Shown here: positions 39,119 to 60,796 of the stretch, one piece after another
How positions within the stretch are numbered: the first letter of the stretch is position 1
How the letters are laid out: every line of letters starts with the position of its first letter
DNA from: Xanthostigma xanthostigma
Lineage: Eukaryota > Arthropoda > Insecta > Raphidioptera > Raphidiidae
Length of the DNA stretch: 64,000 bases
Direction of reading: 5' to 3'
Assembly (NCBI GenBank): GCA_963575645.1
Contig: OY754471.1
Span: 35,534,401-35,598,400, forward strand
The notes under the pieces: model-generated
The model's input: the letters and a program-made list of their open reading frames with translations, nothing else
Databases searched by the model: none
Told to the model about the DNA's origin: nothing
Position numbers and translations under genes: made by a program

Positions 39119-39475
39119 TGTTAAAAAATAACACGATGGTGGTATCAAAGAGACACCTGAGTTGTATCAGAAAATGGCCATAAATATGTTTAGCATCGCT
39201 CTAGGAATAAACTAATTTGATATGATTGTACCTAATTTTTACCACCGTAAAGTTTTGTAATTTTTTAATAAATAAAATTATCGACCAATTTTTCAGACAA
39301 ATATATTAACAAAAAATTAATACATTTTATTTATTGAAGAGTTATAATCAGACGTTAATCAAAGATTTGAATTTTGTAATTTTTGTTAAATTACAAATTT
39401 AAGGCATTAAATAATTATAATAAAACCAGTTTTTAATTTTCTATAAGACAAGAATAATTAATTTTAATACAGCAC
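39119..39475. other. Left flank of the tandem array
   Basis: AT-rich sequence without coding signal. Its last bases (TTTTAATACAGCACACTAG) resemble the 3' end of an array unit (GTTTTAATATACACC). It may therefore be the worn-out tail of a still earlier unit, or the array's preferred target. Confidence 0.4.
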
Positions 39476-42400
39476 ACTAGTGTACCTGTTCAAAACTTTT
39501 TTGAAGGTGACTTAACACAGTCTTCTAAGATCAATTTTTGGCACAGGCTGTCGCCAAAATTTTTTTTGCCACAGGCTGTCGCCAAAAATTTTTTTGCCAA
39601 CACAAAACTTTTTAACACGTGCTTTTGGGTTAGTTTTCAAATATTCATGTGTTTTGGTACAGGCTCGCGCGACACTAACCATTATTTATTTACACAAAAC
39701 ATTTTTTCATTTGATTTGGCATAGTTTTCAAAGCTTGGTATGTTTTGATGCACGCCTGCCAAATTACCATAACAGGTGTACGCGAAACATTTTTGAATGT
39801 GTTTTTAGAATAATTTTCCAAAATCGATGTGCTTTGATAGTGCATCGGTTCCACCAGCATTTCTCGGCTCTTCGAGCCTCGTAATAACTAATTCAAGTAC
39901 AAAATTCAGGCCTTCGCCCTCACAATTTTCGTATTTCTTAAACAAAACATTTTTGTATGTGTTTTTGGCGTAATTATTTTCAATGGTTAGTGTGTTTTGA
40001 TACACGCCTGCTCAAATACTATAACAGATTTACGCGAAACATTTTTGAATGTGTTTTTAGAATAGTTTTCCAAAATTGATGTGTTTCGATACTGGTCGAG
40101 CGCAAAAGGATAACTATTAGTGTGTCGGTGCAGAGGCGCCGACTTTTAGAAAACCCCGTGGGTGATGATGCTCATTTAATGATTCGTTTAAAAAAACTGG
40201 CAAATTGCGAGGAAAGAAATGCACACCAACCGACGAATTTAGACGCAATTTTCACCATTATGTATAATAATCGTGAAAATCGCATCTAAATTCGTCCAGT
40301 AGAATCAAGTTATATGAGAACAATTCGTCATTCTCATAACAAATCTTATTTGCAACTGTATATATAGGTATATGCTTTATTATAATTAATGTTGAATTAG
40401 TTCATTATGTTATTGTAGTCATCCACCGCGATAGTGGAAGTTCGGGTTTAAGTTCCAAAACACCTTTAGTATTTTGTTGTTTTATTTTACCTACGCCGCC
40501 ACTGGGTATTATGTACGTTTTTGAAGTGAAACTATTTTTATAAGCGTTAGGGGGGTAAATTGGCTTGAATCTGACAAAAAGTTAAACGTTTCCCCTTTTC
40601 CGACTTCAACCGACAGTTGAAAGGAAAGAGTGAGAGAAACGTTTCTACTCTCAGTGTCAAAGCGTCATGCCCACTTCCACGAAATCTAAATTTTTTCTAG
40701 CCACGGTAACAAATTCCACATAAACATTAACTATATAATAAAATCGTCAACAAATATTTGAAACTAAGAAGTTTCACTTCTAACGCGTGAGAGTTTCCAG
40801 CGTATTTTTTTTTTATTTCTAAGTGTGAGGTACCAGATCTGGTTATTTTGGTTACTGTTTTCTTGTAATTGAGTATTTTTTGAAAAGCATAATATGTACT
40901 TTGAAATTATTTTATGTGGGTTGTATATGTAAGTTAAACCGGATAAGTGATTTTAGAAATTGCATCTACAAAAAATGACAAAAACTTGACGTTAAAAAAT
41001 TTGACACAATAGTATTATATCTTACATTGAAAAAAGACAGACTATATTTACAAACCGCTGATTCAGAACTGCTAATAATTTATCAGTAAATATAGGTACA
41101 ATATTTAGTTAAATTCGTATGTCAAATTGCCAGCTTGAAAGCGCGGGGGCCTTTTCGAGATAACACGTACTATAAAAGGCACCTAAAAAGTAAAAATCGA
41201 ACTTACCTAAAATACAATATTTTTATTAGATATCCCGATTTAAAATACAGAAACCCGACTGAGTGTGCAGTACGACACTTAATAATATTATAACCTAATT
41301 TTTAGCTGTCATATCTATACAAAGAAAAAATGTTTAAAATATAATTTTTTATTTATTAATAGGCATAATATGTATATATAGCACGTATTTATAATACATT
41401 TAGAATGATTTAATAACTAACCTGTATTATTTCCCGTTACAAAATGCAGCAAATTTTATGAAATGTATTTTTGATACAAAAAACAATTGTTTTAATTTTA
41501 AACGTCAAATAGTCGACCAAAAAAAATAGAAGTCCGATTAATGTTCTATCTCTGTCATACTCACAACGCAAGCGACGACCCTCTGTCAACATTCAGTTTT
41601 GAATATTTCTCGATTTAAATTGGTTAATTCGCCGTCGGACGTCCGTCAAAAGATTCTATAATTATCAATTTACATAATACTGACAAAAAAATTCAATTCA
41701 AAATCGAAAAAAGTGCCAAATTATGCTTTTAAAGTGCAAAGTGACAGCTACATTTTTAGATTGTCGTTTGTTTTTGTTTATTAACTTCGAACGTCAAAAT
41801 ATTTTCCGACTAAATAATAAATCAAACTATAAATTTTTCATCTCTGTCACACACATTAACTGTCGGCGACGTAAGTTTATTAAAACACAGGATTCGTCGT
41901 CGCATGTTAAATTCGTATTGAAGCTAGACTGTGAGTGTTTTTTTACTTTATCATGCGTTCAGTAAACCGACCGCTTCACCGCCTAAACGCCGAAACACCG
42001 ATTTTTATTTACGAATAAATCGCTACAAAAAAGTCGTTTCGAGTGCAACTTTTGCACTTCGCGGGTAGAGTTTTTTACTCCGCTTCGTTTAAAATGCCTC
42101 CCGAGGTCGTGCGACCAAAATCGAGCGAGATATAAGCAAAAACACGTCCCCGGGTTAAATCCCATAAGGACTTTGCGCGGGTCTCGACTTTTGGCTTCGG
42201 CGGCCGAACCGCACGGTCGACTTTTGCGATCGGAACGGCCTATAAAAATAGAAAAATGAGCGAAAATCGTCCCAAAACCTCGTCGTCGTGCGATTTTTTT
42301 TACTATTTTAGACGACGATCCGCGTTTGGCTCAATGCATTTTAAATGGGGCCGAGGGCCCGTTTGAAAAATCGCCCCGACCACGCCCCTAAAATGCAAGA

Positions 42401-42538
42401 AAAGCCGACCCCCCTATGCAATAGAGAATCTCGAGCTCTATATTTGGCTATTTTCCCGATTTTTTTCGTCGAAAAGCGTAGATTTCTATAGACACATAAA
42501 TTTTTGTGTCGAAATTTTTGCGTTTTAATATACACCGG
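39476..42538 (+). repeat. Composite array unit, copy 0 (3.06 kb, internally deleted)
   Basis: The unit starts ACTAGTGTACCTGTTCAAAA and ends with GCGTTTTAATATACACC. It holds a short 5' monomer block (39476-40105), then jumps directly to the hAT C-terminal zone (40106-40504, ending in the hAT terminus ACCTACGCCGCCACTG) and the 3' domain (41200-42538). The Harbinger and fold-back blocks of copies I and II are missing. Identity to the other copies is clearly lower, so this is the oldest copy. Confidence 0.7.
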
Positions 42539-42629
42539 ACTAGTGGACCTGGTTCAAAACTTTTTTGAAGGTGACTTAACACAGTCTTCTAAGATCAATT
42601 TTTGGCACAGGCTGTCGCCAAAAATTTTT

Positions 42630-43560
42630 TGCCAACACAAAACTTTTTTACACGTGCTTTTGGCTTAGTTTTCAAAGATTGATGTGTTTTAATACAGGCA
42701 ACTAACCGTTATTTATTTACACAAAACATTTTTGCATTTGTTTTTGGCATAGTTTTTAAAGGTTGGCGTTTTTTGATGCACGTCTGCCAAATTACCATAA
42801 CAGGTGTACGCAAAACATTTTTGAATGTGTTTTTAGAATAGTTTTCCAAAATCGATGTGTTTTGATACTGCAATGAGTCTAAAAAAATACTCGGCTCTTC
42901 GAGCCTCGTAATAATAATTCAAGTACAAAATTCGGGCCTGCGGCCCTCATCATTGTCGTATTTCTGAAACAAAACATGTTAGCATGTGTTTTTGGCGTAC
43001 TTTTCAAAGGCTGGTGTGCTTTGATCTACGCCTGCCCAATTGTCATAACTGTTGTAAGCAAACAATTTTTGAATGTGACTGAAGAATAGTTTTCCAAGAT
43101 AGATGTGTTTTGATACAGGCTCGCAGCGCAACTTACTGTTATTTATTTACACAAAACATGTTTGCATTTGATTTGGGCATAGTTTTCAAAGGTTGGTGTG
43201 TTTTGATACACGCCTTCTCAAATACCATAACAGGTTTACGCGAAACATTTTTGAATGTTTTTTCAAAATAGTTTTCCAAAATCGATGTGTTTTGATACTG
43301 ATCGAGCTCAAAAAAATACTCGGCTCTTCGAGCCTCGTACAGGTAAAGGTATAAATTTCGACTTTTCGGCCTTCACTATTTTCATATTTCGTAAACAAAA
43401 CATTCTTGCATGCGTTTTTGGCATATTCTTCCAAAGTTGGTGTGCTTTGATATACGCCTGCCTTATTGCAACAAATGTCGTAGGCAAAAATTCTTTGAAT
43501 GTGTCTTAAGTATAGTTTTCCAAGATAGAAGTGTTTTGAAACTAATTAAAGAAATCTCTC
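42630..43560 (+). repeat. 5' monomer block of copy I with paired mini-hairpins
   Basis: Degenerate direct monomers each contain ACACAAAACATTTTTGCAT, GGCATAGTTTTCAAAGG, TTTTGATACACGCCTGCC, ACGCGAAACATTTTTGAATG and AGTTTTCCAAAATCGATGTG. Two monomers end with the 5-bp hairpin GGCTCTTCGAGCC (42893, 43322), followed about 40 bp later by a GGCC-type hairpin (for example GGGCCTGCGGCCC at 42934). Equivalent blocks are at 39590-40100, 51500-52430 and 56570-56870. The open frames across them are by-products of the repeat. Confidence 0.7.
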
Positions 43561-43675
43561 AAAAGCCTCTCACTTTTTCACTGCGCAAACAGAACACGCC
43601 ATTGCATCGACACGACCCCGTAACTGTATTTAAAAAAATCCCCCAAAAGGCCTTACCATTTTCACTGTGCAAAAA

Positions 43676-45050
43676 ATTGGTTGTCTGTAAAGTCGGTTTA
43701 CGGACGATAGTTTTACGTGATAACGTATTCCGCTCGAATATAATATTTAATAATACATTACTGCGCTCTCGCTTGCACGCACAGGGTCAGGCGGAACGTT
43801 ACGGAACATTACACTTTTTCGTGCGTGCAGCTGGTGTTTCATCAATTTATAAGACGTTGTCACGTCAAAAACTCAGTCTGTCATCTTTAGAAGTCCGCCA
43901 TATTAGATTTAGAGTGACGTCACTTTATTTTTCGAGTTATTTTCAGCAAGCCCTTTCATTTGATACCCATATTGTAGGAAAGCATAATAAAATGTGTCCG
44001 CCATCTTTAGAAGTCCGCCATATTGGTTTTAGAGTGACGTCACTTTATTTGTCGAGTTATTCTCAGCAAGCCCTTATATTTGATACCCATATTGTAGGAA
44101 AGCATAATAAAATTAGTCCGCCATCTTTAGAAGTCCGCCATTTTGGATTTAGAGTGACGTCACTTTATTTTTCGAGTTATTCTCAGCAAGCCCTTTCATT
44201 TGATACCCATATTGTAGGAAAGCATAATAAAATTAGTCCGCCATCTTTAGAAGTCCGCCATATTGGTTTTAGACTGACGTCACTTTATTTTTCGAGTTAT
44301 TCTCAGCAAGTCCTTTCATTTGATACCCATATTGTAGGAAAGCATAATAAAATTAATCCGCCATCTTTAGAAGTCCGCCATATTGGATTTAGAGTGACGT
44401 CACTTTATTTTTTGAGTCATTCTCAGCAAGCCCTTTCATTTGATACCCATATTGTAGGAAAGCATAATAAAATTAGTCCGCCATCTTTAGAAGTCCGCCA
44501 TATTGGATTTAGAATGACGTCACTTTATTTTTTGAGTCATTCTCAGCAAGCCCTTTCATTTGATACCCATATTGTAGGAAAGCATAATAAAATTAGTCCG
44601 CCATCTTTAGAAGTCCGCCATATTGGATTTAGAGTTACGTCACACAGCTAACCATGCATTGTCATTCAAACTAAACGTGTATACAAATTTTCATCTCAAT
44701 CGGTTGATGATATCTGCTTCAAAATTACCGAAGGCATTTCCGCCATCTTTAGAAGTCCACCATATTGGATTTAGAGTGACGTCACACAGCTAACCATGCA
44801 TTGTCATTCAAACTAAACGTGTATACAAATTTTCATCTCAATCGGTTGATGATATCTGCTTCAAAATTACCGAAGGCATTCTAGTCGATCACTTAGTAAC
44901 GTCAGGAACGTTAGGCGTTACACTTTTTCGTGCATGCAGCCGGTGTTTCATCTTTTTTTTTTTTTTTTATTTACATAGTTGGGTCGACAGCTAGGTCATT
45001 CATCTTTTTATTTTGACGTGATTCATCAATTTATAAGACGTTATCACGTC
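43676..45050 (+). mobile_element. ISL2EU-related non-autonomous element, copy I only (1.4 kb)
   Basis: The left end TTGGTTGTCTGTAAAGTCGG and the right end TATAAGACGTTATCACGTC are the outer and inner terminal blocks of the 11591-13114 element. Between them the interior is replaced by a tandem array. Copy II reads straight across the site (TGCAAAAAGAAAACGCC at about 52532), so the insertion is later than the unit duplication or was lost from copy II. Flanking runs of A suggest a short A-rich target duplication. A poly-T-headed fragment at 44950-45020 looks like a minus-strand retroposed tail inserted near the right end. Confidence 0.75.
43882..44885 (+). repeat. Compound minisatellite: six 120-bp units then two 142-bp units
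   Basis: Units start at 43882, 44002, 44122, 44242, 44362 and 44482 (spacing exactly 120 bp), then at 44602 and 44744 (spacing 142 bp). All share CATCTTTAGAAGTCCGCCAT and GATTTAGAGTGACGTCA. The 120-bp units continue with CTCAGCAAGCCCTTTCATTT and the 142-bp units with CATGCATTGTCATTCAAACT. Because 120 is divisible by three and one frame has no stop, a 413-codon open frame arises, with a 40-residue repeat. I regard that frame as an artefact. Confidence 0.9.
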
Positions 45051-45616
45051 AAAAGAAAACGCCAACGCATCGACACGACTCCGTAATTGTTTTTTAAAGA
45101 AATCCCCAAAAGACACTTCCCTTTTCCCTGCGCAAAATGAAAATGCCATCGCATCGACACGGCCTAGTAATTTTTTACAACCCCGGTTTTGATGCTAACA
45201 GTCAACAGACGCGCGCAATGATTTATATGATGTCCTTATACCTCCATAGTCTAAGGTTTGTGTCATCTATTTCAACATCTTGTTCGTGTTGAATAATCTA
45301 TTCTTCTTACAACAAAATCGAACAATAATTTTTTTTCCGATCTGAGACCGAATTTTATGCTTAATACGGTCTTCATCATCATCTCTATTAAAACGCTATA
45401 ATGTAAGCCGGCAGTATACACTCGCCGAGTGATACCGAAACTGCCCGAACTCGAGTGTGTACTGGAAACGCTCGCCTGATCTCGTAGCGCCCTGTCTCGC
45501 CTCGCTAGCGCTCTGTATAAAGTCGATTTTTCAACCGCGAGTCAAAGGAATCGAGCGGTGAGTGCGAGTGCATTTAGTGCACACTCTTCACCTAGTGCGA
45601 ATTTAAATGTACTTAA

Positions 45617-46913
45617 AGGTACGATTCCGATCCACGCGGCAGACGGCAGACCGACAGCAATAGCTGTCAGGCTTCAGTTGCCGTCGTATAGATTCCGAAG
45701 CCGGCAGCAGGCACTGCAGTTACGTCGCAGCATTAGTAATTTGCGATGTGTATTCGATATAGTTATGAATAATCAAATGCTGCAAGTTTTATTGCAAGAA
45801 GAAGAAGACGACGACGATCTATTATTATACTATTGCTTAAGCAGAAAACCTATACTGCCATTGTATTTAAATTGACTGGAAGAAGGCTCTTATGAAACTT
45901 TCATAAAAAAATCAAATACACACGAATGTTTAGACACTAAATTAATAAAATTTATATAAAAAAATTTTTGCAATCAAATAAACACGGATGTTTAGACACT
46001 AAATTAATAAAATTTTTGATTTATTCGTCTGTCAACACGTCCATAATGTCAAACTGCAACGGCAGTACTGTGTTTTGTATGGTAGTGCAGTCTGCCGCTA
46101 CGCGTCAAAAAAAGTCACGACATGTCGCGAGGCATTTGCAGTCGTAAGGCACGTCCAAAATGCAAGCTGGTAGTCAGATTCAGATTTTCGGCGTCTGACT
46201 GCCTGACTCCGAGCGGCGTTGGGTGTGGCCAATATAAAAGCTGGTTATCGGCGCAGACAGAGCATTCATATTAAATAATTATTAATTATGGAGCGAACAG
46301 TACAGATTGCAGCTTTGTTGCTGCTTGGCGACAATGTTACATCTAAATTAAAACCTGTTAAAAGTGAAATACATTCAATTAATAAATGAAGGTCGATTTA
46401 CGGGGAGTACAAACACCTTTTTTCGCAATTACTTGCCGACGAAAACCGATTTTTTTAATATTTCCGAATGAGTCCGGATACTTTTTACTTTATTTTGTCA
46501 AGAATTGAACACAGGCTTACAAAGAACTGGGCGTATTTCCACAAAACCCCCATTTTGCCGATATCCATATTTTATAGCACCTAAAAACGACACTGTCAGA
46601 CGCAGGTTATCTGAAACCAGAATGTACAATTCATACTGGTAAATATCTGAGTCAGAGAGCCGGTGCGCCGTAAAACTGCGCGCTGGTGCATTATGGCCAG
46701 TCCGATTTAGCAACAAAGGATTTTATGCACGCCGACTGTCTGACTCAGAAAACCAGCGTCTGACTACCTGACTACCAGCTTGCATCTTGGACGTACCTTT
46801 ATGTCGGAATCGGCCTCATACAAATGAAAACTACAAAGTAATGCCGTTTGCCGTCGCGGCACATTCACTCGACGTCTGCCGCTGCAGTCTGCCGCGTGGA
46901 TCGGAATCGTACC
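45617..46913 (+). mobile_element. Inner Harbinger-like element with TTAA flanks (copy I)
   Basis: The left end AGGTACGATTCCGATCCACG and the inverted right end GTGGATCGGAATCGTACC share about 30 bp including GCGGCAGACGGCAG. TTAA lies on both sides (45613-45616, 46914-46917). The coding remnant MNNQMLQVLLQEEEDDDDLL followed by LYYCLSRK and RLEEGSYETLIKKS-like sequence suits the acidic N-terminus of Harbinger transposases; in copy I a stop interrupts it. A duplicated segment of about 58 bp lies at 45905-46020. The 652-bp element 46147-46798 is nested in it. Confidence 0.65.
46147..46798 (+). mobile_element. PIF/Harbinger element nested in copy I only (652 bp)
   Basis: The ends AGGCACGTCCAAAATGCAAG and the inverted CTTGCATCTTGGACGTACCT match over about 30 bp, including CTGGTAGTCAG. 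Three-base flanks are GTA (46144-46146) and TTA (46799-46801). Copy II reads GCAGTCGTATGTCTGAATCG at this point, the empty site. The plus strand from 46289 has MERTVQIAALLLLGDNVTSK and then, after stops, YFRMSPDTFYFILSRIEHRL, the Harbinger N-terminal signature. No catalytic domain remains. Confidence 0.82.
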
Positions 46914-47298
46914 TTAAGTTGTCATTTTTGTTAGTTAAACTCAGTTAAAGTGTAAACTAATAGCGTTTTTAATGATAAATAAATTATGGCGGATTTATTT
47001 TTAATAGGTATAGGTATTATGCGCAATAAGCTGAAACAGCAGCAACACAAACAACGTCAGATCCATTTAACTGCGCCGTTAAAATGGCCAGTGAAGCCAA
47101 GTCACGCCAAGTGTGTACAGTGTACACACACACACACATACATTCGTAGACGCTCGCTTTATCAACTCTCTCGGCGAGATCTCACGGCGAGCACGCTCGG
47201 CGAATGCGTACTGCAGGCATTAGCTTTAAGTTAACCCCAACTAACATGTTCGTATGAAATTCGTAAATTCAAATCATATATAGGTACTCTTATTTATA

Positions 47299-47896
47299 TA
47301 GGGCCTGTCATAAATACGGTGGCGGTCAGTTATTTTGAATACTGTACGTTGAATTAAAAAACAAAAAAACACGTGTCCAGTATTTTTAAAAGGCATATTC
47401 AGCGACACAAAACTTGACGCCCCGTCCCCACTCCCGGTGGCGGGGGCGGGGGTAGCTTTGAAATTTGAAATGGGTACCCCCAATATTTATTAGTGATTTG
47501 TATTGTACGTTGAAAAATAAGACACTTTTGTCTGAAACATTTTTTCGAATTCTGAGGAAACATCTTGTCAGATAGGCGACATGAACTAACGCCAGCAAAC
47601 CAACATGAGGCCATTCTGTTCAAACAACAGACATATACATTTCTAGGCACGTATTTTTTCTCCGTTATTAACAGCGCCAATTACTCAGAATTCGAAAAAA
47701 TGTTTCAGACAAAAGTGTCCTATTTTTTACCGTAGAATACAAATCGGTAATAAAAATTGGGGGTACCAATTTAAAATTCCAAAGTTTAGTGTCGCTGAAT
47801 AGATCTTTTAAAAATACCGGACACGTGTTTTTTTATTCAGCGTGCAGCATCGAAATTATTGACCGCCCCGGGGTATTTTAGACACACACCCTGTAT
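47299..47896. mobile_element. Fold-back element (about 0.6 kb) in copy I
   Basis: The left arm starts GGGCCTGTCATAAATACGGT and the right arm is its inverted, diverged copy ending ACCCTGTA, with TA at both edges. Inner arms share AAACATTTTTTCGAATTCTG and its inverse. It looks like a mariner-type fold-back or long-arm MITE. The counterparts in copy II are 54043-54636 and a left-truncated one at 55040-55424. Confidence 0.65.
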
Positions 47897-48089
47897 AGTA
47901 GTCCATACTTATAGCTCCATCACTGTATCTAAAACGAAACTATTTGTATCGGTTTTTGATGAACTGCGCAAAAAAAAAAAACACAGGATAACGTTCCCGA
48001 ATTTTTTCTTATGTTAACGGTTGGCGCCATTCACAGGTTAGATCTGAAAGGCTAACATTTTGTGAGAATTTTTTTAGGTCCAATGCTAA

Positions 48090-48625
48090 AACATTAGCTT
48101 ACAAAAACACCCTATAGCGTGTATACAATCTACATAGCATTTTCTCGAATTTAGGATATTTCGCGTTATTTACGTCGAACGGTGCGTCGGAGCGATTGAA
48201 GCGCCGACTTCGGAAAGACGCCTTTCGACGGGCCGAACGTGACGATATCCTTTTAGATTTGATCAGACGATCCGTCCGACGTCGGCAAATATTTGGAAAT
48301 TTTTCACGTCCACCAGGAGCCTTCGGCCCCGACGGTCGAAACATAGGTTTATAAGAGACCGCCCGAAAAAAATTCCATTAAATTTCTGTAATAAAAATTG
48401 GGGATACCCATTTAAAATTCCAAAATTATCCTCGCCTCCGCCAACAGAAGTGGGTGGGCAGTGGGTTAAGTTTAGTATCGCTAAAAAGAGACGCAGCTAT
48501 ATTTCCTATACACCGCATCTTGAGTAAATGTAGGCAATGCGTGATATAGTAATTTTATTACACATAATATGATAAAAATGCAGTTTTCATTACTTAAAAT
48601 TGATTTTTGAAATTCGCACTATTTA
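48090..48625. other. CpG-rich block and copy-I-specific junction
   Basis: Positions 48090-48350 (GTCGAACGGTGCGTCGGAGC, CGACGTCGGC) are CpG-rich and match 55640-55900. From about 48387 to 48625 the sequence is specific to copy I. I see no gene in it. Confidence 0.5.
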
Positions 48626-48989
48626 CTTACTACATGCTCGACAACGATTACATTTTGTAGTTTTACTGTGTAAAACTATATAATCTAATAGCTGTCAGTA
48701 CACACTACGGCGGTTTTATATCGTTAATTAAAACTGTTAAATAAGAAAGTTATTAAGATGCAACCTTTGACTATTTAAGAACGGACAGGAAGTTGAACTT
48801 TCTTTTCCCATAATAGTGATCGTCCGGCAACGCATTTTTAAACTTCCACGCATGTGCGAGACTGCGCGCGTTTTGAAATTATATTTTTTTGTTTACTTTT
48901 GCGATCTCACAATCTTTACCGCCTTTACCGCCCCTATGTAAGATTAGATTAAGACTTGTTCAGACCCTGTCCCTCCCCAAATCATACGT

Positions 48990-49715
48990 AATAATGTGGC
49001 TATTCTGTGTCTGTTCCGAGTCTAGCACTGTGTCGAAGATATTTTTTTTAACTATTAGTGTGTCGGTGCAGAGACGCCGGCTTTTAAATAACCCTGTGAG
49101 TGCTGATGCTCAATTTAAAGATTCGTTTAAAAAAACTGGCAAATTGCGAGGAAAGAAATACACACCGACCGACGTATTTAGACGCAATTTTCACCATTAT
49201 GTATAATTATCGTGAAAATCGCATCTAAATTCGTCCAGTAGAATCAAGTTATATGAGAACAATTCATCATTCTCATAATAAATCTTATTTGCAGCTGTAT
49301 TTTATACAATATATATAGGTATATCATGCTTTATTATAATTAATGTTGAATTAATCCATTATGTTATTGTAGACTAACTGACTAAGTCATCCGCCGCGAT
49401 AGTGGAAGTTTCGGGTTTAAGTTCCAACAATGACATTGTTGTAAAGTAATTTTTTCTCAAAGCCGATTACTGATCAGTTTTGATGCGTCTATGCTCTATT
49501 TATCACCCGTGGGTGCTAGAGCCCTCGAGCACCCACGGAGTCGGCGCCCCTGTTTCGGTGGCTTCATGTCAAAGAAGCTGTTTTCTAAATTAAAGTTAAT
49601 AAAATCTTACTTAAGGTCCTGCACAATGAGAGCCAATCTTTTCATTTCATCTATTGAAAAGAATGCAGGAAAGATAATGTCGATATGTGATGGAATATTT
49701 TAGCTAAATAAAGTT
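48990..49715 (+). pseudogene. hAT transposase C-terminus split by a MITE (copy I)
   Basis: The plus frame before the MITE ends ...STVSKIFFLTISVSV. Directly after it the sequence reads ASCQRS and, after a one-base shift, FSKLKLIKSYLRSCTM followed by SSIEKN. This is the hAT C-terminal dimerisation region, whose usual form is V-A-S-C-E-R-S-F-S-K-L-K-L-I-K-x-Y-L-R-S. The stop at 49703 is followed by AATAAA at 49707. The piece lacks the catalytic domain and cannot act. The same remnant is at 58361-59045. Confidence 0.75.
49069..49552. mobile_element. hAT MITE (484 bp) with 8-bp TSD, copy I
   Basis: The ends are CAGAGACGCCGGCTTTT on the left and GTCGGCGCCCCTG on the right, with subterminal GTGGGTGCT blocks inverted. 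The flanks are TGTCGGTG (49061-49068) and TTTCGGTG (49553-49560), matching at seven of eight positions. The duplicated bases lie in the hAT transposase sequence (S-V-S-V codons). The matching element in copy II occupies about 58437-58882. Confidence 0.85.
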
Positions 49716-49799
49716 CCGTAAGCACCTTTAGTATTTTGTTGTTTTATTTTGGGAGTGCACTATAGAAAACCGCCCTACAATGTATATAATAATCTATAA

Positions 49800-51381
49800 C
49801 AATATTTGATTACATATCTCGATTTAAAATACAGAAACCCGACTGAGTGTATTTATGACACAGAATAATATTATAACCTAATTTTTAGCTGTCATATTAC
49901 AAAATGTTTAAAATATAATTTTTGATTTATTAATAGGCATAATATGTATTTAGCACGTATTTGTAATACATTTAAAATGATTTGTTAACTTACTAACCTG
50001 TATTATTTCCCGTCATAAAATGCATAAAATTTTATGAAATGTATTTTTGACACAAAAACAATTGTTTTAAATTTAAACGTCAAATAAATGTCCAAAAAAA
50101 AAGAGATTCGAATAATGTTCTGTCTCTGTCGAACTCACAGCTCAAATGCTAGCTCCTCCGAAATTACTATTTTGAATAGATCTCAATTAATATCGATTTA
50201 TCCGGTGTCTGGCGTATATTTGAATATTTTATATGTTTCAATGTACATAATATCGATAACCATTTTCGATTCAAAATCCTTAATAATGCCAAATTTTTCA
50301 TTTAAAATGATAAATGACAGCTCCAAATTTAGACAGTCGTTTGTTTATTAATAATTCAAACGTCAAAGTAAAATGAGAGCGTTCAGTCAATCTTCGGCTC
50401 GGATGAATCGATAATAAATTATATGACACAAAAATATCCGTGCAAAAACCAACAAATAACGATGTATTATCTGAATGATTGCTTTTAAAATTCGATAATT
50501 TATGACATTTTTATTAGATATCTCGATTTTAAGTCTTAATTTCCACGGTTTATAAAAAAAAACCATCTGTCAGAACTCGCTTTCGCTGGAACAGCCGAAA
50601 AATCTTTTGAACGCATACTTTTTTAGAACAAAACGCTATTGCTTAACGAATCAAGTTAAACCATGCTAAAAATGTTTCATCTCAGTCACACTAATGGAGT
50701 GTCGGCGACGTAAATTTAATTAAAAACTCGATTCGTCGTCGCATGTTAAAATCGTATTTAAGTTAGACTGTGATCTTTTGAAAATTTTCCAATGATCCTA
50801 GGCACTTTTACATACTCACCGTCATATGAACCTTGAAAAAAAGCAATTTTGCCGATTTTGTCGGCGCATAAATGACTATAAAAAAGTCGTTTTGAGCGTT
50901 TCTCTTGCACTTTCTAGTTTGACTTTTTTATTCTGCGTCGTTTGAGACGGGTCTCTACGTCGTCCGATTAATATCGGCCGAGTAATGAGCGATTTCCCGC
51001 GCCGGGTTAATCTTATGGAAAATTTTATTTCGACAAAAGTCGGCCGAAATTCGGCCGAAAACCGTCGGCGCTCGCGCTCGCTCGAAAGAGGTGAAAAATG
51101 TCGTCAGTTTCCGATAAAATTGAACCGCGAGCGATTTTTTCTCGATTTTAGCCGAGCGTTTGAAAAGTCGTCTCCGTGTTATCCTTACGTACGCAGGGGT
51201 CGACTTTGAAAAATCACAGGGGCTACGCCCCTCGAATGCAAGAGTCGGCAATGTCGCTACGCATCAAGTTAAACGGTCGTCTCTCGGAATTTTTTTTCGT
51301 GAATTTTTTCCTTGAAAACTGTAAATTTGTATAGCTGCAAAAGTTTTTTTTTTTCAAAATTAAGCCTTTTAATATATACAG
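49800..51381. other. 3' domain of unit I with CpG-rich terminus
   Basis: Non-coding sequence with direct internal similarity (GTCGGCGACGTAAATTTAAT and CGATTCGTCGTCGCATGTTA recur in copy 0). The last 500 bp are CpG-rich and include the near-palindrome TCGGCCGAAATTCGGCCGA at 51040-51058. The 87-codon frame at 50088-50351 is not kept in copy 0, so I do not call it a gene. The counterpart in copy II is 59130-60706. Confidence 0.55.
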
Positions 51382-51499
51382 ACTAGTGGACCTGATTCAA
51401 AACTTTTTTGAAGGTGACTTAACACAGTCTTCTAAGATCAATTTTTGGCACAGGCTGTCGCCAAAAAATTTTTTGCCACAGGCTGTCGCCAAAAATTTT

Positions 51500-52430
51500 T
51501 TTGCCAACACAAAACTTTTTACACGTGCTTTTGGCTTAGTTTTCAAAGATTGGTGTGTTTTAATACAGGCAACTAACCGTTATTTATTTACACAAAACAT
51601 TTTTGCATTTGTTTTTGGCATAGTTTTTAAAGGTTGGCGTTTTTTGATGCACGTCTGCCAAATTACCATAACAGGTGTACGCGAAACATTTTTGAATGTG
51701 TTTTTAGAATAGTTTTCCAAAATCGATGTGTTTTGATACTGCAATGAGTCTAAAAAAATACTCGGCTCTTCGAGCCTCGTAATAATAATTCAAGTACAAA
51801 ATTCGGGCCTGCGGCCCTCATCATTGTCGTATTTCTGAAACAAAACATGTTAGCATGTGTTTTTGGCGTACTTTTCAAAGGCTGGTGTGCTTTGATCTAC
51901 GCCTGCCCAATTGTCATAACTGTTGTAAGCAAACAATTTTTGAATGTGACTGAAGAATAGTTTTCCAAGATAGATGTGTTTTGATACAGGCTCGCAGCGC
52001 AACTTACTGTTATTTATTTACACAAAACATGTTTGCATTTGATTTGGGCATAGTTTTCAAAGGTTGGTGTGTTTTGATACACGCCTTCTCAAATACCATA
52101 ACAGGTTTACGCGAAACATTTTTGAATGTTTTTTCAAAATAGTTTTCCAAAATCGATGTGTTTTGATACTGATCGAGCTCAAAAAAATACTCGGCTCTTC
52201 GAGCCTCGTACAGGTAAAGGTATAAATTTCGACTTTTCGGCCTTCACTATTTTCATATTTCGTAAACAAAACATTCTTGCATGCGTTTTTGGCATATTCT
52301 TCCAAAGTTGGTGTGCTTTGATATACGCCTGCCTTATTGCAACAAATGTCGTAGGCAAAAATTCTTTGAATGTGTCTTAAGTATAGTTTTCCAAGATAGA
52401 AGTGTTTTGAAACTAATTAAAGAAATCTCT
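51500..52430 (+). repeat. 5' monomer block of copy II with paired mini-hairpins
   Basis: This block is almost base-for-base the same as 42630-43560, including the 82- and 84-codon open frames on opposite strands, which are identical in both copies. Identity of non-coding sequence at this level indicates recent duplication, not selection on a protein. Hairpins GGCTCTTCGAGCC occur at 51764 and 52193. Confidence 0.7.
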
Positions 52431-53088
52431 CAAAAGCCTCTCACTTTTTCACTGCGCAAACAGAACACGCCATTGCATCGACACGACCCCGTAATTGTAT
52501 TTAAAAAAAAAGGCCTTACCATTTTCACTGTGCAAAAAGAAAACGCCATCGCATCGACACGACTCCGTAATTGTTTTTTAAAAAAATCCCCAAAAGACAC
52601 TGCCCTCTTCCCTGCGCAAAAAGAAAATGCCATCGCATCGACACGGCCTAGTAATTTTTTACAACCCCGGTTTTGATGCTAACAGTCAACAGACGCGCGC
52701 AATGATTTATATGATGTCCTTATACCTCCATAGTCTAAGGTTTGTGTCATCTATTTCAACATCTTGTTCATGTTGAATAATCTATTCTTCTTACAACAAA
52801 ATCGAACAATATTTTTTTTTTTCGATCTGAGACCGAATTTTATGCTTAATACGGTCTTCATCATCATCTCTATTAAAACGCTATATCGTAAGCCGGCAGT
52901 ATACACGCGCCGAGAGATACCGAAACTGCCCGAACGCGGGTGTGTACTGGAAACGCTCACCTGATCTCTCGCCTCGCTAGCGCTCTTTATAAAGTCGATT
53001 TTTCAACCGCGAGTCAAAGGAATCGAGCGGTGAGTGCGAGTGCATTCAGTACACACTCTTCACCTAGTGCGAATTTAAATGTACTTAA

Positions 53089-53654
53089 AGGTACGATTCC
53101 GATCCACGCGGCAGACGGCAGACCGACAGCAATAGTTGCCATCGTATAGATTCCGAAGCTGGCAGCAGGCACTGCAGTTACGTCGCAGCATTACTAATTT
53201 GCGATGTGTATTCGATATAGTTATGAATAATCAAATGCTGCAAGTTTTATTGCAAGAGGAAGAAGACGACGACGATCTATTATTATACTATTACTTAAGC
53301 AGAAAACCTATACTGCCATTGTATTTAAATAGACTGGAAGAAGGTTCTTATGAAACTTTGATAAAAAAATCAAATAAACACGGATGTTTAGACACTAAAT
53401 TAATACAATTTTTGATTTCTTCGTCTGTCAACACGTCCATAATGTCAAACTGCAACGGCAGTACTGTGTTTTGTATGGTAGTGCAGTCTGCCGCTACGCG
53501 TCAAAAAAAGTCACGACATGTCGCGAGGCATTTGCAGTCGTATGTCTGAATCGGCCTCATACAAATGAAAACTACAAAGTAATGCCGTTTGCCGTCGCAG
53601 CACATTCCGTCGACGTCTGCCGCTGCCGTCTGCCGCGTGGATCGGAATCGTACC
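53089..53654 (+). mobile_element. Inner Harbinger-like element of copy II (566 bp)
   Basis: TTAA lies at 53085-53088 and 53655-53658 with the same 30-bp ends as in copy I, but without the nested 652-bp element. The coding remnant is open here for 137 codons (MNNQMLQVLLQEEEDDDDLL then YYYLSRKPILPLYLNRLEEG), slightly better kept than in copy I. It stops soon after and carries no DDE motif. Confidence 0.68.
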
Positions 53655-54042
53655 TTAAGTTGTCATTTTTGTTAGTTAAACTCAGTTAAAGTGTAAACTA
53701 ATAGCGTTTTTAATGATAAATAAATTATGGCGGATAGGACAAATTTATTTTTAATAGGTATAGGTATTATGCGCAATAAGCTGAAACAGCAGCAACACAA
53801 ACAACGTCCAGATCCATTTAACTGCGCCGTTTAAATGGCCAGTGAAGCCAAGTTACGCCAAGTGTGGACAGTGTACACACACACGCACATACATTCGTAG
53901 ACGCTCGCTTTATCAACTCTCTCGGCGAGATCTCACGGCAAGCACGCTCGGCGAATGCGTACTGCAGGCATTAGCTTTAAGTTAACCCCAATTAACATGT
54001 TCGTATGAATTCGTAAATTGAAATCATATATACTCTTATTTA

Positions 54043-55424
54043 TATAGGGCCTGTCATAAATACGGTGGCGGTCAGTTATTTTGAATACTGCACGTTGAAA
54101 TAAAAAAACAAAAAAACACGTGTCCAGTATATTCAGCGACACAAAACTTGACCCCCCCGTCCCCTCTCCCGGTGGCGGGGGGCGGGGGTAGCTTTGAAAT
54201 TTGAAATGGGTACCCCCAATTTTTATTAGAGATTTGTATTGTACGTTGAAAAATAAGACACTTTTGTCTGAAACATTTTTTCGATTTCTGAGGAAACAGT
54301 ATCTTGTCAGGTAGGCGACATTAACTAACGCCAACAAACCAACATGAGGCCATTCTGTTCAAACAACAGACACATACATTTCTAGACACGTATTTTTTCT
54401 CCGTTATTAACAGCGCCAACTACTCAGAATTCGAATAAATGTTTCAGACAAAAGTGTCCTATTTTTTACCGTAGAATACAAATCGGTAATAAAAATTGGG
54501 GTTACCAATTTAAAATTCCAAAGTTTAGTGTCTCTGAATAGATCTTTTAAAAATACCGGACACGTGTTTTTTTATTCAACGTGCAGCATTCGAAATAATT
54601 GACCGCCCCGGTATTTAAGACACACGCCCTGTATAGTACTCCATACTTATAGCTCCATCACTGTATCTAAAACGAAACTACTTGTATAGGTTTTGGATAT
54701 ACTGCGCAAGACTGTGACGGTTCTGTCACAGTGTTCAGACAGCTTGAAACAGAGGTGTAGTGTTGGAATAACCAGGGTAGTAATTCGAAAAAAGAGACGC
54801 AGATATCATATTTTCGAAATATTATGTTCCCACGGTTAACAAAACTGTTCTTCTCTCTGTTGCCTGAACTTTTTTAGTCCAGTAAATAAGCCGGAAAATC
54901 TGGAAAAGTGGTGGAACATCTCCGATTTCAAAATTTCTTTTTTACTTGATTCCTTAGACCCTCAGGAACATTCATCACCACTAACCTCCGCCTCACTCCG
55001 AAAATTGGAAAAAAGCACCCGCCAGTAAAACAGTGAAAACAAACACTTTTGTCTGAAACATTTTTTCGAATTCTGAGGAAATAGTATCTTGTCAGGTAGG
55101 CGACATGAACTAACGCCAACAAACCAACATGAGGCCATTCTGTTCAAACAACAGACATACATTTCTAGGCACGTATTTTTTCTCCGTCATTAACAGCGCC
55201 AACTACTCAGAATTCGAAAAAATGTTTCAGACAAAAGTATCCTATTTTTCACCGTAGAATACAAATCGGTAATAAAAATTGGGGGTAACAATTTAAAATT
55301 CCAAAGTTTAGTGTCGCTGAATAGATCTTTTAAAAATACTGGACACGTGTTTTTTGTTTTTTTATTCAACGTGCAGCATTCGAAACAATTGACCGCCCCG
55401 GTATTTAACACACACGCCCTGTAT
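54043..55424. repeat. Fold-back element and its partial duplicate in copy II
   Basis: Positions 54043-54636 hold a complete version. A segment of about 780 bp is then partly repeated so that a second right arm ends at 55424 (CGCCCTGTATTATGT). Between them, at 54700-54763, lies a fragment of the 62713 MITE (GCGCAAGACTGTGACGGTTC). This explains part of the length difference between copies I and II. Confidence 0.6.
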
Positions 55425-55928
55425 TATGTATCTCCATACTTATAGCTCTGTCGCTGTATCTAAAACGAAAATATTTGTATCGATTTTTGATGAACTGCGC
55501 AAAAAAAAACACAGGGTAACGTTCCCGAATTTTTTCTCATGTTAACGGTTGGCGCCATTCACAGGTTAGATCTAAAAGGCTAAAATTTTGTGAGAATTTT
55601 TTTAGGTTCAATGCTAAAACATTAGCTTACAAAAACACCCTAGCGTGTATACAATCTACATAGCATTTTCTCGAATTTAGGACATTTCGCGTTATTTATG
55701 TCGAACGGTGCGTCGGAGCGATTCGAGCGTCGACTTCGAAAAGATGCGACGGGTCGAACGTGACGATATCCTTTTAGTTTCGATCAGACGATCCGTCCGG
55801 CATCGGGGATTTTTTTTTGTTTTCGGAAAATATTTAGACATTTTTTACGTCCACCAGGAGCCTTCGGCCCCGACGGTCAAAACATAGGTTTATAAGAGAC
55901 CGCCCAAAAAAAATTCCATTAAATTTTC

Positions 55929-57010
55929 AGATCGATCGGGGGTGCCGTATAGCAGGTGCGTTTGAAAAACCAACTTTCAAAAGGTGTCGCTCTTTTGGAA
56001 TTTTTTTCAACCATAAGGAAACATCCGAGCGTGTCAGCGGGATAGGACGGCACCCAAGCGAAGGTTTAACAAATTTTTTGGTAATTTTTCCGACAGTAAA
56101 AATGTTGCTCCTTCCAGTCGAAAAAGACGTCCGAAAATCGCAAAAACGGTACTTTTTACCCCTTCGAGGGGCCTCCCGCGCTGTGAAATGTTTTCCTCCC
56201 CGTCACCAATTCTAATATGTCCAACAGTCAAAATGTCGAAATTCCCCCAAAAAAAAAATCAAGGTAGCCTATTTTTTTTAAATAGCGAATTTCACATAAA
56301 CATTAATTCCTAATCCTGGAGCCTTAAAATCATCAACAAATATTAGACCCTAAGAAGTTTCACTTCTAGCGCGTTTGAAAATTATGAAAAGTTCTCACGA
56401 ATCAGCATCGAGAGAACGATGCGTAAATAACTGAAATTTGTTCGTCTTAGAGTTTATCGACACATACGACTGACATATTTTTTATCGTATCGATACGTAG
56501 TCTTCGATCGACCTAAGTTATATATTATATAATTGGAAAAGTTGTCGGTTTCGCTATTATATTAGACATAATGAAACATTTTTGAATGTGTTTTTAGAAT
56601 AGTTTTCCAAAATCGATGTGTTTTGATACTTGTCGAGCGCAAAAAAATGAGCCTCGTCCAGGTACAGGTACAAAATTCAGTCCTTCGGCCCTAAATATTT
56701 TCATATTTCGTAAACAAAACATTTTTGCATGTTTTTGGCATATTTTTCAAAGGTTGGTGTGCTTTGATATACGACTACTCAATTGCTAGAACTTTCGTAG
56801 GCAAAAATTCTTTGAATGTGTCTTAAGTATAGTTTTCCAAGATAGAAGTGTTTTGAAACTAATTAAAGAAATCTCTCAAAAGGCTCTCACTTTTTCACTG
56901 CGCAAACAGAACACGCCATTGCGTCGACACAACCCCGTAATTGTATTTTAAAAAATTCCCCAAAAGGCCTTACCATTTTCACTGTGCAAAAAAAAAACGC
57001 CATCGCATCG
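55929..57010. other. Copy-II-specific segment with extra monomer block
   Basis: Positions 55929-56270 are unique in the window. Positions 56275-56370 resemble 40715-40790 of copy 0 (AAGAAGTTTCACTTCTA). Positions 56570-57010 repeat the end of the 5' monomer block (AATGTGTTTTTAGAATAGTT through GCAAACAGAACACGCCATTG). This suggests recombination between units of different age. Confidence 0.55.
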
Positions 57011-57205
57011 ACATGACCACTTACTACATGCTCGACAACGATTACATTTTGTAGTTTTACTGTGTAAAACTATATAATCTAATAGCTGTCAGTACACACT
57101 ACGGCGGTTTTATCTCGTTAATTAAAACTGTTAAATAAGAAAGTTATTAAGATGCAACTTTTGACTATTTAAGAACGGACAGCAAGTTGAACCTTCTTTT
57201 CCCAA

Positions 57206-57998
57206 CTTTTTTGGTACATTGGACGACGCTCAACGTTCCAAAGAAGTGGGCGAAGGGGGGGGGGTGCGCCCCGGGTTTCAAGCACCAAGGGGTGAGGGGC
57301 TGTTTATTTATTACGTAAGACAATTTTAACCACTTTTTGACCTCCGCCCCCACCCTTTTATACTTACATAAAATCTGTATCTACCAATATGCAAAGAAAA
57401 AGTAGCAAAAATATAAAAACCCGTTAGTTTGTGTGCTATAAAAAACAATGTTTTAATATGAATCGGTAACACATGTTTTACTAAAAATGTGAATCAGTTC
57501 AGGGGCTTAACAGCAAGTCAGCTAGTGGATCAGCAACTGGAACATCTCTGCTCTGCGTCGGATTCACTGCCTCATTTAAGAGAATAATTAAGTTCACCCA
57601 TTCAACAATATCAACATTGTTGCGTTTCATGTGGCACATAGCTCCGTACCCCTTCTTAAGTATGCGGCAACAGCGTGTTCTTTTTCAATATTCGAAGCGA
57701 TGCCATGAGCTTTTTTGTGAAGTTGCACAGCTTTCTTAGGTGCAAAGTACTTTGAGGGCGTTTTGGACCGATGGACAGTGGGGCGGGGGTGTATTGTCGT
57801 TGATAGTTTAAGTATGTTGAATACATTGCCGTACGATCCACGCATGTGCGAGACTGCGCGCGTTTTGCAATTATATTTTTTTGTTTACTTTTGCGATCTC
57901 ACAATCTAGACCCTTTACCGCCCCTATGTAAGATAAGAATAAGATTTGTTCAGACCCTGTCCCTCCCCAAATCATCTTACGTAATAAACGAACAGCCC
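57206..57998. mobile_element. TIR element present fully only in copy II (about 0.7 kb)
   Basis: The left end GGGGCTGTTTATTTATTACG (from about 57297) and the inverted right end CGTAATAAACGAACAGCCCC (to 57998) both continue into AAGA/TCTT. They define an element with about 25-bp inverted repeats. Copy I keeps only a right portion (48838-48990). A minus-strand frame near 57627-57845 has no recognisable domain. The superfamily is uncertain. Confidence 0.6.
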
Positions 57999-58360
57999 CC
58001 GACAACGACAACTCACTCGCACAGTCAGTTAATACTTACAGAAGAATCACTCTGCAAAGCCATAATATACCAATAAATAAATGGATTCAGCTACTCTAGT
58101 ATCTATCTACATTTATTTATATTATATCTGAACATGTATCGCAACTTTATTTTCATTTACTGTCGAATATAATTTCCAAAAAGAAGAATGAGTTCAGGTT
58201 GCGCTCGGTCGAGCGATTGAGTAACGCGATGAAAGTAGATACAATATAATATCATACGCGCGACTGAACTGATTCGAGTAAATAATAAATAATTAATAAA
58301 TCGTACCTACTACAGCAGCGGAATGTACCGCGCCATAGAGCCTCTCATATTCATCGTAAA

Positions 58361-59045
58361 ATGTGGCTATTCTGTGTCTGTTCCGAGTCTAGCACTGTGT
58401 CGAAGATATTTTTTTTAACTATTAGTGTGTCGGTGCAGGGACGCCGGCTTTTAAATAACCCTGTGAGTGCTGATGCTCAATTTAATGATTCGTTTAAAAA
58501 AACTGGCAAATTGCGAGGAAAGAAATGCACACCGACCGACGTATTTAGACGCAATTTTCACCATTATGTATAATTATCGTGAAAATCGCATCTAAATTCG
58601 TCCAGTACAATCAAGTTATATGAGAACAATTCATCATTCTCATAATAAATCTTATTTGCTTTATTATAATTAATGTTGAATTAATCCATTATGTTATTGT
58701 AGACTAACTGACTAAGTCATCCGCCGCGATAGTGGAAGTTTCGGGTTTAAGTTCCAACAATGACATTGTTGTAAAGTAATTTTTTCTCAAAGCCGATTAC
58801 TGATCAGTTTTGATGCGTCTATGCTCTATTTATCACCCGTGGGTGCTAGAGCCCTCGAGCACCCACGGAGTCGGCGCCCCTGTTTCGGTGGCTTCATGTC
58901 AAAGAAGCTGTTTTCAAAATTAAAGTTAATAAAATCTTACTTAAGGTCCTGCACAATGAGAGCCAATCTTTTCATTTCATCTATTGAAAAGAATGCAGGA
59001 AAGATAATGTCGATATGTGATGGAATATTTTAGCTAAATAAAGTT
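58361..59045 (+). pseudogene. hAT transposase C-terminus split by a MITE (copy II)
   Basis: This is the same arrangement as in copy I, with a deletion of about 35 bp in the MITE near 58660. The 70-codon frame containing FSKLKLIKSYLRS is identical to that at 49491-49703. The left portion is joined to different upstream sequence (ends TCATCGTAAA before ATGTGGC), showing that the copies have been rearranged just before this point. Confidence 0.72.
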
Positions 59046-60796
59046 CCGTAAGCACCTTTAGTATTTTGTTGTTTTATTTTGGGAGTGCACTATAGAAAAC
59101 CGCCCTACAATGTATATAATAATCTATAACAATATTTGATTACATATCTCGATTTAAAATACAGAAACCCGACTGAGTGTATTTATGACACAGAATAATA
59201 TTATAACCTAATTTTTAGCTGTCATATTACAAAATGTTTAAAATATAATTTTTGATTTATTAATAGGCATAATATGTATTTAGCACGTATTTGTAATACA
59301 TTTAAAATGATTTGTTAACTTACTAACCTGTATTATTTCCCGTCATAAAATGCATAAAATTTTATGAAATGTATTTTTGACACAAAAACAATTGTTTTAA
59401 ATTTAAACGTCAAATAAATGTCCAAAAAAAAAGAGATTCGAATAATGTTCTGTCTCTGTCGAACTCACAGCTCAAATGCTAGCTCCTCCGAAATTACTAT
59501 TTTGAATAGATCTCAATTAATATCGATTTATCCGGTGTCTGGCGTATATTTGAATATTTTATATGTTTCAATGTACATAATATCGATAACCATTTTCGAT
59601 TCAAAATCCTTAATAATGCCAAATTTTTCATTTAAAATGATAAATGACAGCTCCAAATTTAGACAGTCGTTTGTTTATTAATAATTCAAACGTCAAAGTA
59701 AAATGAGAGCGTTCAGTCAATCTTCGGCTCGGATGAATCGATAATAAATTATATGACACAAAAATATCCGTGCAAAAACCAACAAATAACGATGTATTAT
59801 CTGAATGATTGCTTTTAAAATTCGATAATTTATGACATTTTTATTAGATATCTCGATTTTAAGTCTTAATTTCCACGGTTTATAAAAAAAAACCATCTGT
59901 CAGAACTCGCTTTCGCTGGAACAGCCGAAAAATCTTTTGAACGCATACTTTTTTAGAACAAAACGCTATTGCTTAACGAATCAAGTTAAACCATGCTAAA
60001 AATGTTTCATCTCAGTCACACTAATGGAGTGTCGGCGACGTAAATTTAATTAAAAACTCGATTCGTCGTCGCATGTTAAAATCGTATTTAAGTTAGACTG
60101 TGATCTTTTGAAAATTTTCCAATGATCCTAGGCACTTTTACATACTCACCGTCATATGAACCTTGAAAAAAAGCAATTTTGCCGATTTTGTCGGCGCATA
60201 AATGACTATAAAAAAGTCGTTTTGAGCGTTTCTCTTGCACTTTCTAGTTTGACTTTTTTATTCTGCGTCGTTTGAGACGGGTCTCTACGTCGTCCGATTA
60301 ATATCGGCCGAGTAATGAGCGATTTCCCGCGCCGGGTTAATCTTATGGAAAATTTTATTTCGACAAAAGTCGGCCGAAATTCGGCCGAAAACCGTCCGCA
60401 CTCGCGCTCGGTCGAAAGAGGTCAAAAATGTCGTCAGTTTCCGATAAAATTCAACCGCGAGCGATTTTTTCTCGATTTTAGCCGAGCGTTTAAAAAATCG
60501 TCACCGGGTTAAAAGATACGAATGCAGACCCTCGGGCGAAAAATCACCGCCAAGCCCCCTCTGAAATGCAAGAATCGGCAATGCGACGTTGAGACGTAGA
60601 AATATTGCCCCCAGGCGGTGAATTTTTTTCAAAAAAATCCCTCTGAAAATGCACTTTTCTATAAATGTCCCGTTTTGAAAATTTCAAATTTAAGCGTTTT
60701 AATATAAGAGAAGATTGAACAATAAACATCTACTGGTTAATAAGCTTTTTTTTTTTGTTTAATAATTACTTCGGTGCCATAATATCGTCGTGTTCT

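Follow-up and report, generated by a model that had tools for sequence, protein, structure and literature searches.

Tandem non-autonomous Helitrons in Xanthostigma xanthostigma and their probable growth by insertion at resident 5' ends

Helibat1/Helraiser of the little brown bat begins with 5'-TC, ends with CTAG-3' behind an upstream palindrome, inserts between A and T next to an AT-rich 3' flank, and encodes a RepHel protein with a HUH nuclease and a superfamily 1 (SF1)/PIF1 helicase (PMC4778049); here and below, statements on published systems follow the accessible portions of the reports cited. Helraiser circles have exact CTAG|TC joints, and the left terminal sequence (LTS) is cleaved between the flank and TC (PMC4778049, PMC5876387); the preference for AT-rich DNA is strongest on the 3' flank (PMC4778049). 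Tandem Helitrons have been noted for plants and bat (PMC5876387), those of bat and silkworm are thought to follow terminator bypass (PMC4067079), and for a tandem in Metarhizium both 5'-end insertion and rolling-circle replication were left open by the authors (PMC5148889). The present study concerns a 64,000-nucleotide stretch of the Xanthostigma xanthostigma genome (contig OY754471.1, positions 35,534,401 to 35,598,400; hereafter the window), in which positions 39477-60714 hold three head-to-tail units on the minus strand, each built as TC...palindrome...CTAG. This array consists of three complete non-autonomous Helitrons, presumably mobilised in trans, and most likely grew by serial insertion at the 5' boundaries of resident copies, which would be favoured targets; the probability of this reading is put at about 0.72.

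The elements described here share with Helibat1/Helraiser the two termini, the palindrome, the A|T insertion, the RepHel domains and an AT-rich preference on the 3' flank, but they are 3-17 kb long (Helraiser, 5,296 bp), many of their transposase genes are still open, the two tyrosines are spaced YxxY (Y727/Y731 in Helraiser), the 3'-flank motif is sharper, and the arrays mix coding and non-coding copies. As with the tandem Helitrons of bat, silkworm and plants, the copies lie head-to-tail with junctions between the LTS and the right terminal sequence (RTS) (PMC4067079, PMC5876387); those arrays were ascribed to bypassed termination or likened to concatemers, whereas here the units mostly differ and the data favour 5'-end insertion. 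FoHeli of Fusarium and Metarhizium also shows self-insertion and a three-copy tandem, but its termini and target are non-canonical and the cases single, in contrast to the many loci found here (PMC5148889). The Xuan-Feng Helitrons of wheat are a comparable autonomous/non-autonomous pair, active, with circles and an AT-dinucleotide preference; the accessible part of that report states that no genomic tandem Xuan1 copies were detected and mentions no LTS-like target motif (PMC13286980). The first-pass annotation of the window had known of no described element with such a build, but tandem Helitrons have been described in bat, silkworm, Drosophila, rice, maize and fungi (PMC4067079, PMC5876387, PMC5148889). 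Overall, the kind of element is ordinary and its arrangement instructive: tandem arrays are known, and the evidence for 5'-end targeting is new. No statement likening the target motif of a Helitron to the 5' end of the element itself was found in the accessible text of the literature searched, most subscription papers lying outside that search.

The array and the class of its elements

Judged from sequence, the three window units are complete non-autonomous canonical Helitrons (Helitron1) and not Helentrons. Their borders and termini are as follows.

39477-42539, minus strand: U1, a short non-autonomous Helitron of 3,063 bp, with 5'-TCCGGTG... at 42539 and CTAG-3' at 39477; the 3'-most copy of the array.
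42540-51382, minus strand: U2, a non-autonomous Helitron of 8,843 bp, with 5'-TCTGTATATATTAAAAGGC at 51382 and CTAG at 42540; directly adjoins U1.
51383-60714, minus strand: U3, a non-autonomous Helitron of 9,332 bp, with 5'-TCTTCTCTTATATTAAAACGC at 60714 and CTAG at 51383; directly adjoins U2.
42520-42539, minus strand: 5' terminus (LTS) of U1; the 3' end of U2 abuts at its TC boundary.
51364-51382, minus strand: 5' terminus (LTS) of U2; the 3' end of U3 abuts at its boundary.
60694-60714, minus strand: 5' terminus (LTS) of U3; preceded by a host A (T60715 on the plus strand).
39484-39508, minus strand: 3' (RTS) hairpin of U1, of the TTCAAAA-AAG-TTTTGAA type, upstream of CTAG; predicted fold weak (-7.6 kcal/mol, z -1.3).
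42547-42572, minus strand: 3' (RTS) hairpin of U2; predicted fold weak (-6 kcal/mol, z -1.1).
51390-51415, minus strand: 3' (RTS) hairpin of U3; predicted fold weak (-6 kcal/mol, z -1.1).
39457-39476, minus strand: host target DNA directly 3' of the array, TGTGCTGTATTAAAATTAAT, carrying the target motif as T-N6-TATTA.

The U1/U2 and U2/U3 junctions are exact CTAG|TC joints with no extra base, and the host bases flanking the array on the plus strand, A39476 and T60715, form the canonical A|T target. On the minus strand, each unit opens with TC, which a few variable bases separate from TATATTAAAA(C/G)GC, and closes with a short palindrome followed by CTAG; in U2, the palindrome TTCAAAA-AAG-TTTTGAA stops 13 nt short of the 3' terminus. 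The first-pass annotation had recognised three units in one orientation with the common start ACTAGTGKACCTG, which the sequence bears out, but it had read them backwards on the plus strand, the biological strand being minus, and had assigned about 9 kb to all of them, at variance with the three lengths listed. Its right border on the plus strand, TTTTAATAT, falls a few bases short of the true one, where TTTTAATAT is followed by ACACCGGA, ATACAGA or AAGAGAAGA and directly abuts the next CTAGTG or host DNA.

The 5' TC and 3' CTRR termini of Helitron1 are present as TC...CTAG in all three window units and in nine solitary copies read at both ends. The flank bases indicate A|T insertion without target-site duplication: T directly follows CTAG in 18/18 host 3' flanks of a CATCTAG-type sample, for which the search pattern left this base free, and in 50/50 of the first flank set described below, where most copies had been found with patterns that include the T. 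At host-side 5' ends the preceding base is A in 11 of 12 cases; the remaining one is a duplicated locus on C9 (contigs are numbered with the prefix C). The hairpin expected some 10-15 nt before the 3' end is predicted in 3/3 units, with weak energies, and a putative autonomous partner with Rep (HUH, two Tyr) and an SF1/PIF1 helicase is encoded in the same genome. The TT (or TTTT-T/C) insertion of Helentron/Helitron2 elements is not seen, the target being A|T, and the list of 11 Pfam families for the 1,557-aa protein includes no endonuclease domain fused to RepHel. The Helentron-like alternative of the first-pass annotation was therefore rejected, for wrong target and wrong domain content; its proposal of a non-autonomous rolling-circle element stands, with the ends, target rule and same-genome Rep/helicase partner of a canonical Helitron.

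The unit ends were searched against the whole 623-Mb assembly, on which the array counts rest, and solitary as well as stacked copies with the same ends were found, as that annotation had suggested be checked. The 21-base start pattern (at most two mismatches) occurs 127 times, as against once for the reversed control; 100 of the 127 matches were listed, and 100 of 397 in a second search for 3' ends, so the array counts are lower bounds. The 155 listed 3' ends (94 exact and one one-mismatch end of the ACTAGTGG type, here called G-type, 13 of U1 type and 47 of CATCTAG type) fall into 75 loci when ends within 19 kb on one strand are grouped; this grouping is distance-based, not every junction having been read, and it includes one pair merely 217 bp apart and one unit with a 303-bp gap. 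Thirty loci have at least two ends (110 ends together), and the largest arrays, on C4 and C8, have up to nine listed ends. A family LTS is directly abutted by 64 of the 94 listed exact G-type ends through an exact CTAG|TC junction; the 66 matches of the end-on-LTS pattern, all among these 94 ends, comprise the 64 family LTSs and two LTS-like host sites (C4:30881548 and C4:43310953). In the corresponding search for CATCTAG-type junctions, 9 of 13 matches are LTSs. Arrays are widespread in the assembly, and the window array is no isolated oddity. The listed ends are present on every one of contigs C1-C13, and a special chromosome region, another option raised at first, is rejected. Of ten presumed single copies retrieved in full length, nine are bordered by host DNA on either side; the tenth, at C3:54486180, has a damaged 3' end and was excluded from the count.

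Transposase genes and the target motif

A Rep/PIF1-helicase gene is carried by longer units, about 14-17 kb in size, whose ends are of the same kind (measured: 13,785, 15,945, 16,259 and 17,401 bp). The gene product matches Helitron_like_N (PF14214; 5.8e-60) and PIF1 (PF05970; 7.1e-62) and contains HCH, YPKY and Walker A motifs, whose catalytic roles are presumed. From 840 first-look candidates in the genome, 30 RepHel matches were scored; all are 92-100% identical to the query, and 26 of the 30 have no stop, with open frames of 1,547-1,575 aa, mostly 1,555 or 1,558. Coding units share the family 5' and 3' ends, some stand within arrays (C2:24.91M, C2:38.2M), and at C3:21.37M two of them follow one another in exact tandem. 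No Pfam match was obtained for a 190-aa Rep-like fragment at C2:38M. A Pfam search of eight window open reading frames (four inside the array: one in U2 and three in U3) gave no transposase match; the Rep/helicase that the first-pass annotation did not see is carried by the long relatives in the same genome. Because the ends and the target rule are shared and the transposase genes are open, the window units are presumably mobilised in trans by RepHel-coding relatives. Among canonical Helitrons outside plants, the intact copies are candidates for natural activity; Helraiser needed reconstruction. On the small contigs, C16 has three RepHel matches and four listed 3' ends and C22 has one RepHel match; these coding Helitrons may come from parts of arrays that were left unplaced.

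On the 3' side of the insertions, the adjoining host DNA has a one-sided motif, T-N1-10-[A/T]ATTA, in 52 of 68 pooled flanks, against a background with mean 6.9 and maximum 11 in other windows of comparison. The first flank set began with 63 3' flanks, from which 7 family LTSs were removed; near-duplicates were dropped from the remaining 56 to leave 50 host flanks. In these, [A/T]ATTA is present at +3 to +17 in 38/50, compared with 1-7/50 in fifteen other windows, and no G or C occurs at positions 9 and 10. A null with random T positions gave a mean of 4.8 and a maximum of 16 in 20,000 draws, and in an AT-matched control with 42 usable flanks, 33 were observed against 9.4 expected (standard deviation, sd, 2.3). 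Seven of the 50 host flanks start with TC and could belong to further Helitrons as their 5' ends; when these are left out, the motif is found in 31/43. Since the motif had been chosen after inspection of the first flanks, a second set of 20 CATCTAG-type ends was fetched. Two of these abut an LTS, and the motif is present in 14 of the remaining 18, among which one site is represented by two copies. It recurs at the 5' end of the Helitron itself, in 9/9 LTS variants compared. LTS and host-site motif are alike in kind and in rough spacing, not exactly.

Formation of the arrays

Serial insertion at the resident 5' boundary is favoured because neighbouring units are unlike, units have whole-length solitary matches, and the closest relatives of their ends lie elsewhere. 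U1 is 98.9% identical along its whole length to the solitary copy at C6:5058985, and U3 is 98.4% identical, also over its whole length, to the solitary copy at C6:28643467-28652786; therefore, these units are not recombinant mosaics. The alignment of U1 with U2 covers 1,831 of the 3,063 bp of U1, and that of U2 with U3 covers 6,366 of the 8,843 bp of U2. Each of the six ends of U1-U3 has its closest relative at another locus (6/6, among 41 3' and 39 5' ends compared).

According to the proposed scheme, U1 would have inserted first, into host DNA at A|TGTGCTGTATTAAAA, U2 later and exactly at the 5' boundary of U1 (A|TCCGGTGTATATTAAAA), and U3 last, at the 5' boundary of U2. The resident 5' boundary would be a favoured target because it presents a one-sided signal of the kind found at host insertion sites, A|T with an [A/T]ATTA core following within a few bases, and because the transposase must cut there anyway to start transposition. 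If a circle or transfer intermediate of one copy were joined to another copy at the A|TC nick of the latter, it would come to lie directly upstream in the same orientation, and repeated joining would give an array with the oldest copy at its 3' side. In other arrays, some further units have been added by local duplication.

A broader proposition, somewhat more likely to be wrong than right, is that the Helitron transposase picks its integration sites by the same DNA recognition that it uses for nicking its own 5' end, with 5'-growing arrays as the default product. If true, it would offer an alternative to the missed-terminator account of tandem Helitrons in general; one biochemical property would lie behind the A|T rule, the one-sided AT preference of Helraiser, and the arrays, in which the order of the units would then record the order of insertion, starting from the oldest copy at the 3' side. 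Because one genome offers many arrays along with dozens of single insertions and transposase genes that look intact, the two explanations can be distinguished here.

A number of observations weigh against insertion of complete Helitrons at resident 5' ends. With regard to the elements themselves, the predicted RTS hairpins are just 1.1-1.3 sd below shuffled sequences and not clearly more stable (3/3 units), and a search with the joined host flanks found no empty site for the window array. With regard to the target, the motif core starts at +8 to +11 in 8/9 LTS variants and at +5 in one, offset from the host sites, where its start ranges from +3 to +12 and is mostly +5 to +8, with a median of +7. 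The motif alone is too weak to account for the roughly two thirds of G-type ends that lie on an LTS; these insertions are presumably also directed by added affinity for the LTS as a whole or by spatial closeness. Ends of the CATCTAG (coding) type lie on an LTS less often, in at least 10/48 (seven of the nine LTSs of the junction search, plus the ends L117, L126 and L133). Another abundant Helitron-like family, characterised by the 3' end TTTTGCACGGGTACACTAG, accounts for most of 100 places listed among 397 matches (at most two mismatches; control 6). It shows the motif less clearly, in 9/20 sampled flanks (one site apparently represented twice) as against 1-4 in eleven comparison windows, and no end of this ACTAGTGTACCCG type was found on an LTS of the window family among the 6 matches of the junction search. 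Lastly, 5' ends that are 100% identical occur inside single arrays (C4:22.4M, C6:27.7M, C4:18.2M), and dimers are repeated on C6 (27.70M; 9429/9111/9429/9111) and on C2 (24.87M; 16573/10202/16259/10203), which show that local duplication took place as well.

Among the other explanations, rolling-circle concatemers fare best, although they appear unlikely. Here a multimer, produced when the terminator of one donor is bypassed or through repeated replication of a circle, would integrate in a single step; the exact CTAG|TC joints of Helraiser circles (PMC4778049, PMC5876387), four neighbouring pairs of equal length (10183/10183, 10134/10134, 8874/8874 and 9111/9109) and the identical 5' ends within one array fit such a process. 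Like neighbours would be predicted, but these four are out of 50 neighbouring pairs compared for length within 20 bp (null mean 1.6, p 0.066). In the window, a single-step concatemer is rejected because the three units are unlike, and rolling-circle multimerisation, which the first-pass annotation named beside unequal exchange, is not supported as the cause of an array of three different elements whose ends have their closest relatives, among those compared, at other loci.

Homologous recombination, either of circles into resident copies or by unequal exchange that expands arrays, is rather less probable again. The repeated dimers suggest duplication of larger segments, and at C9:32.48M a U1-type copy was duplicated together with its 3' flank. 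However, recombination within a resident copy should swap 5' and 3' parts, whereas U1 and U3 match solitary types over their whole length, and unequal exchange is unable to create the first heterogeneous array.

Joint transposition of multi-unit blocks, with the inner terminator skipped, has a very low probability. In its favour, U1-type ends form the 3'-most unit at 8/30 multi-end loci. A short unit with the TCCGGTG LTS adjoins another unit at seven loci, but the neighbours measurable at six of them are 17,401, 10,183, 10,074, 8,874, 8,843 and 15,945 bp long (8,874 and 8,843 bp could be one type), which is not one moved block; at C6:5058985, host DNA stands in place of the neighbour. A macrosatellite or an assembly artefact, for which the arrays of up to nine listed ends and counts based on assembly alone could be cited, is dismissed, since copies are not confined to tandems: solitary ones have host DNA at both ends, the host flanks differ, and the units inside arrays are unlike.

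Unit interiors and other observations

The internal features listed below bear out the monomer block as well as the nested elements and fold-back of the first-pass annotation, the last two having been examined in U2 only.

42969-43298, no strand: 182-bp tandem sub-repeat near the 3' side of U2; counterpart in U3 at 51840-52169.
43875-44880, no strand: 120/142-bp tandem array inside U2; no counterpart in U3 among the repeats listed.
45616-46915, no strand: nested element with terminal inverted repeats (GGTACGATTCCGATCC...) in U2; encloses a second element at 46146-46799.
47360-47837, no strand: fold-back (palindromic) segment in U2.

The nested element at 46146-46799 of U2 is absent at the matching place in U3. 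The CpG-rich domain noted at first is real (observed/expected 1.9-2.0, compared with 1.2 in the flanks of the array), but it sits at the Helitron 5' end and not in a 3' domain. The U2 frame included in the Pfam search, 43410-44651 (plus strand), is a 413-aa frame through the 120-bp repeats with an FNIP repeat match of 22.6 bits (cut-off 21 bits), which is probably a by-product of the tandem repeats. Outside the array, a 311-aa open frame at window positions 696-1631 (plus strand), with no Pfam match above cut-off, is possibly a host gene exon.

Four further loci are described for their structure. Two different Helitron types, at C6:5058985 (L028) and C11:2250877 (L081), lie at nearly the same place beside copies of one repeat, for which there are 446 first-look candidates genome-wide; their flanks share 94% identity across 235 bp. 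The repeat downstream of C6:5058985 was considered as a 5' end of another Helitron, but this was rejected, as most of 40 scored copies match only from about base 3 onward. At C2:10966876 (L006), a U1-type copy at the 5' end of an array has the 3' end CTA|TCTTCTC, without the final G of CTAG. In L023 (C3:54483700-54487300, minus strand), the first 16 bases of the element are repeated directly before its 5' end (TCTTCTCTTATATTAA|TCTTCTC...), which may reflect re-initiation or else a second insertion at a 5' end.

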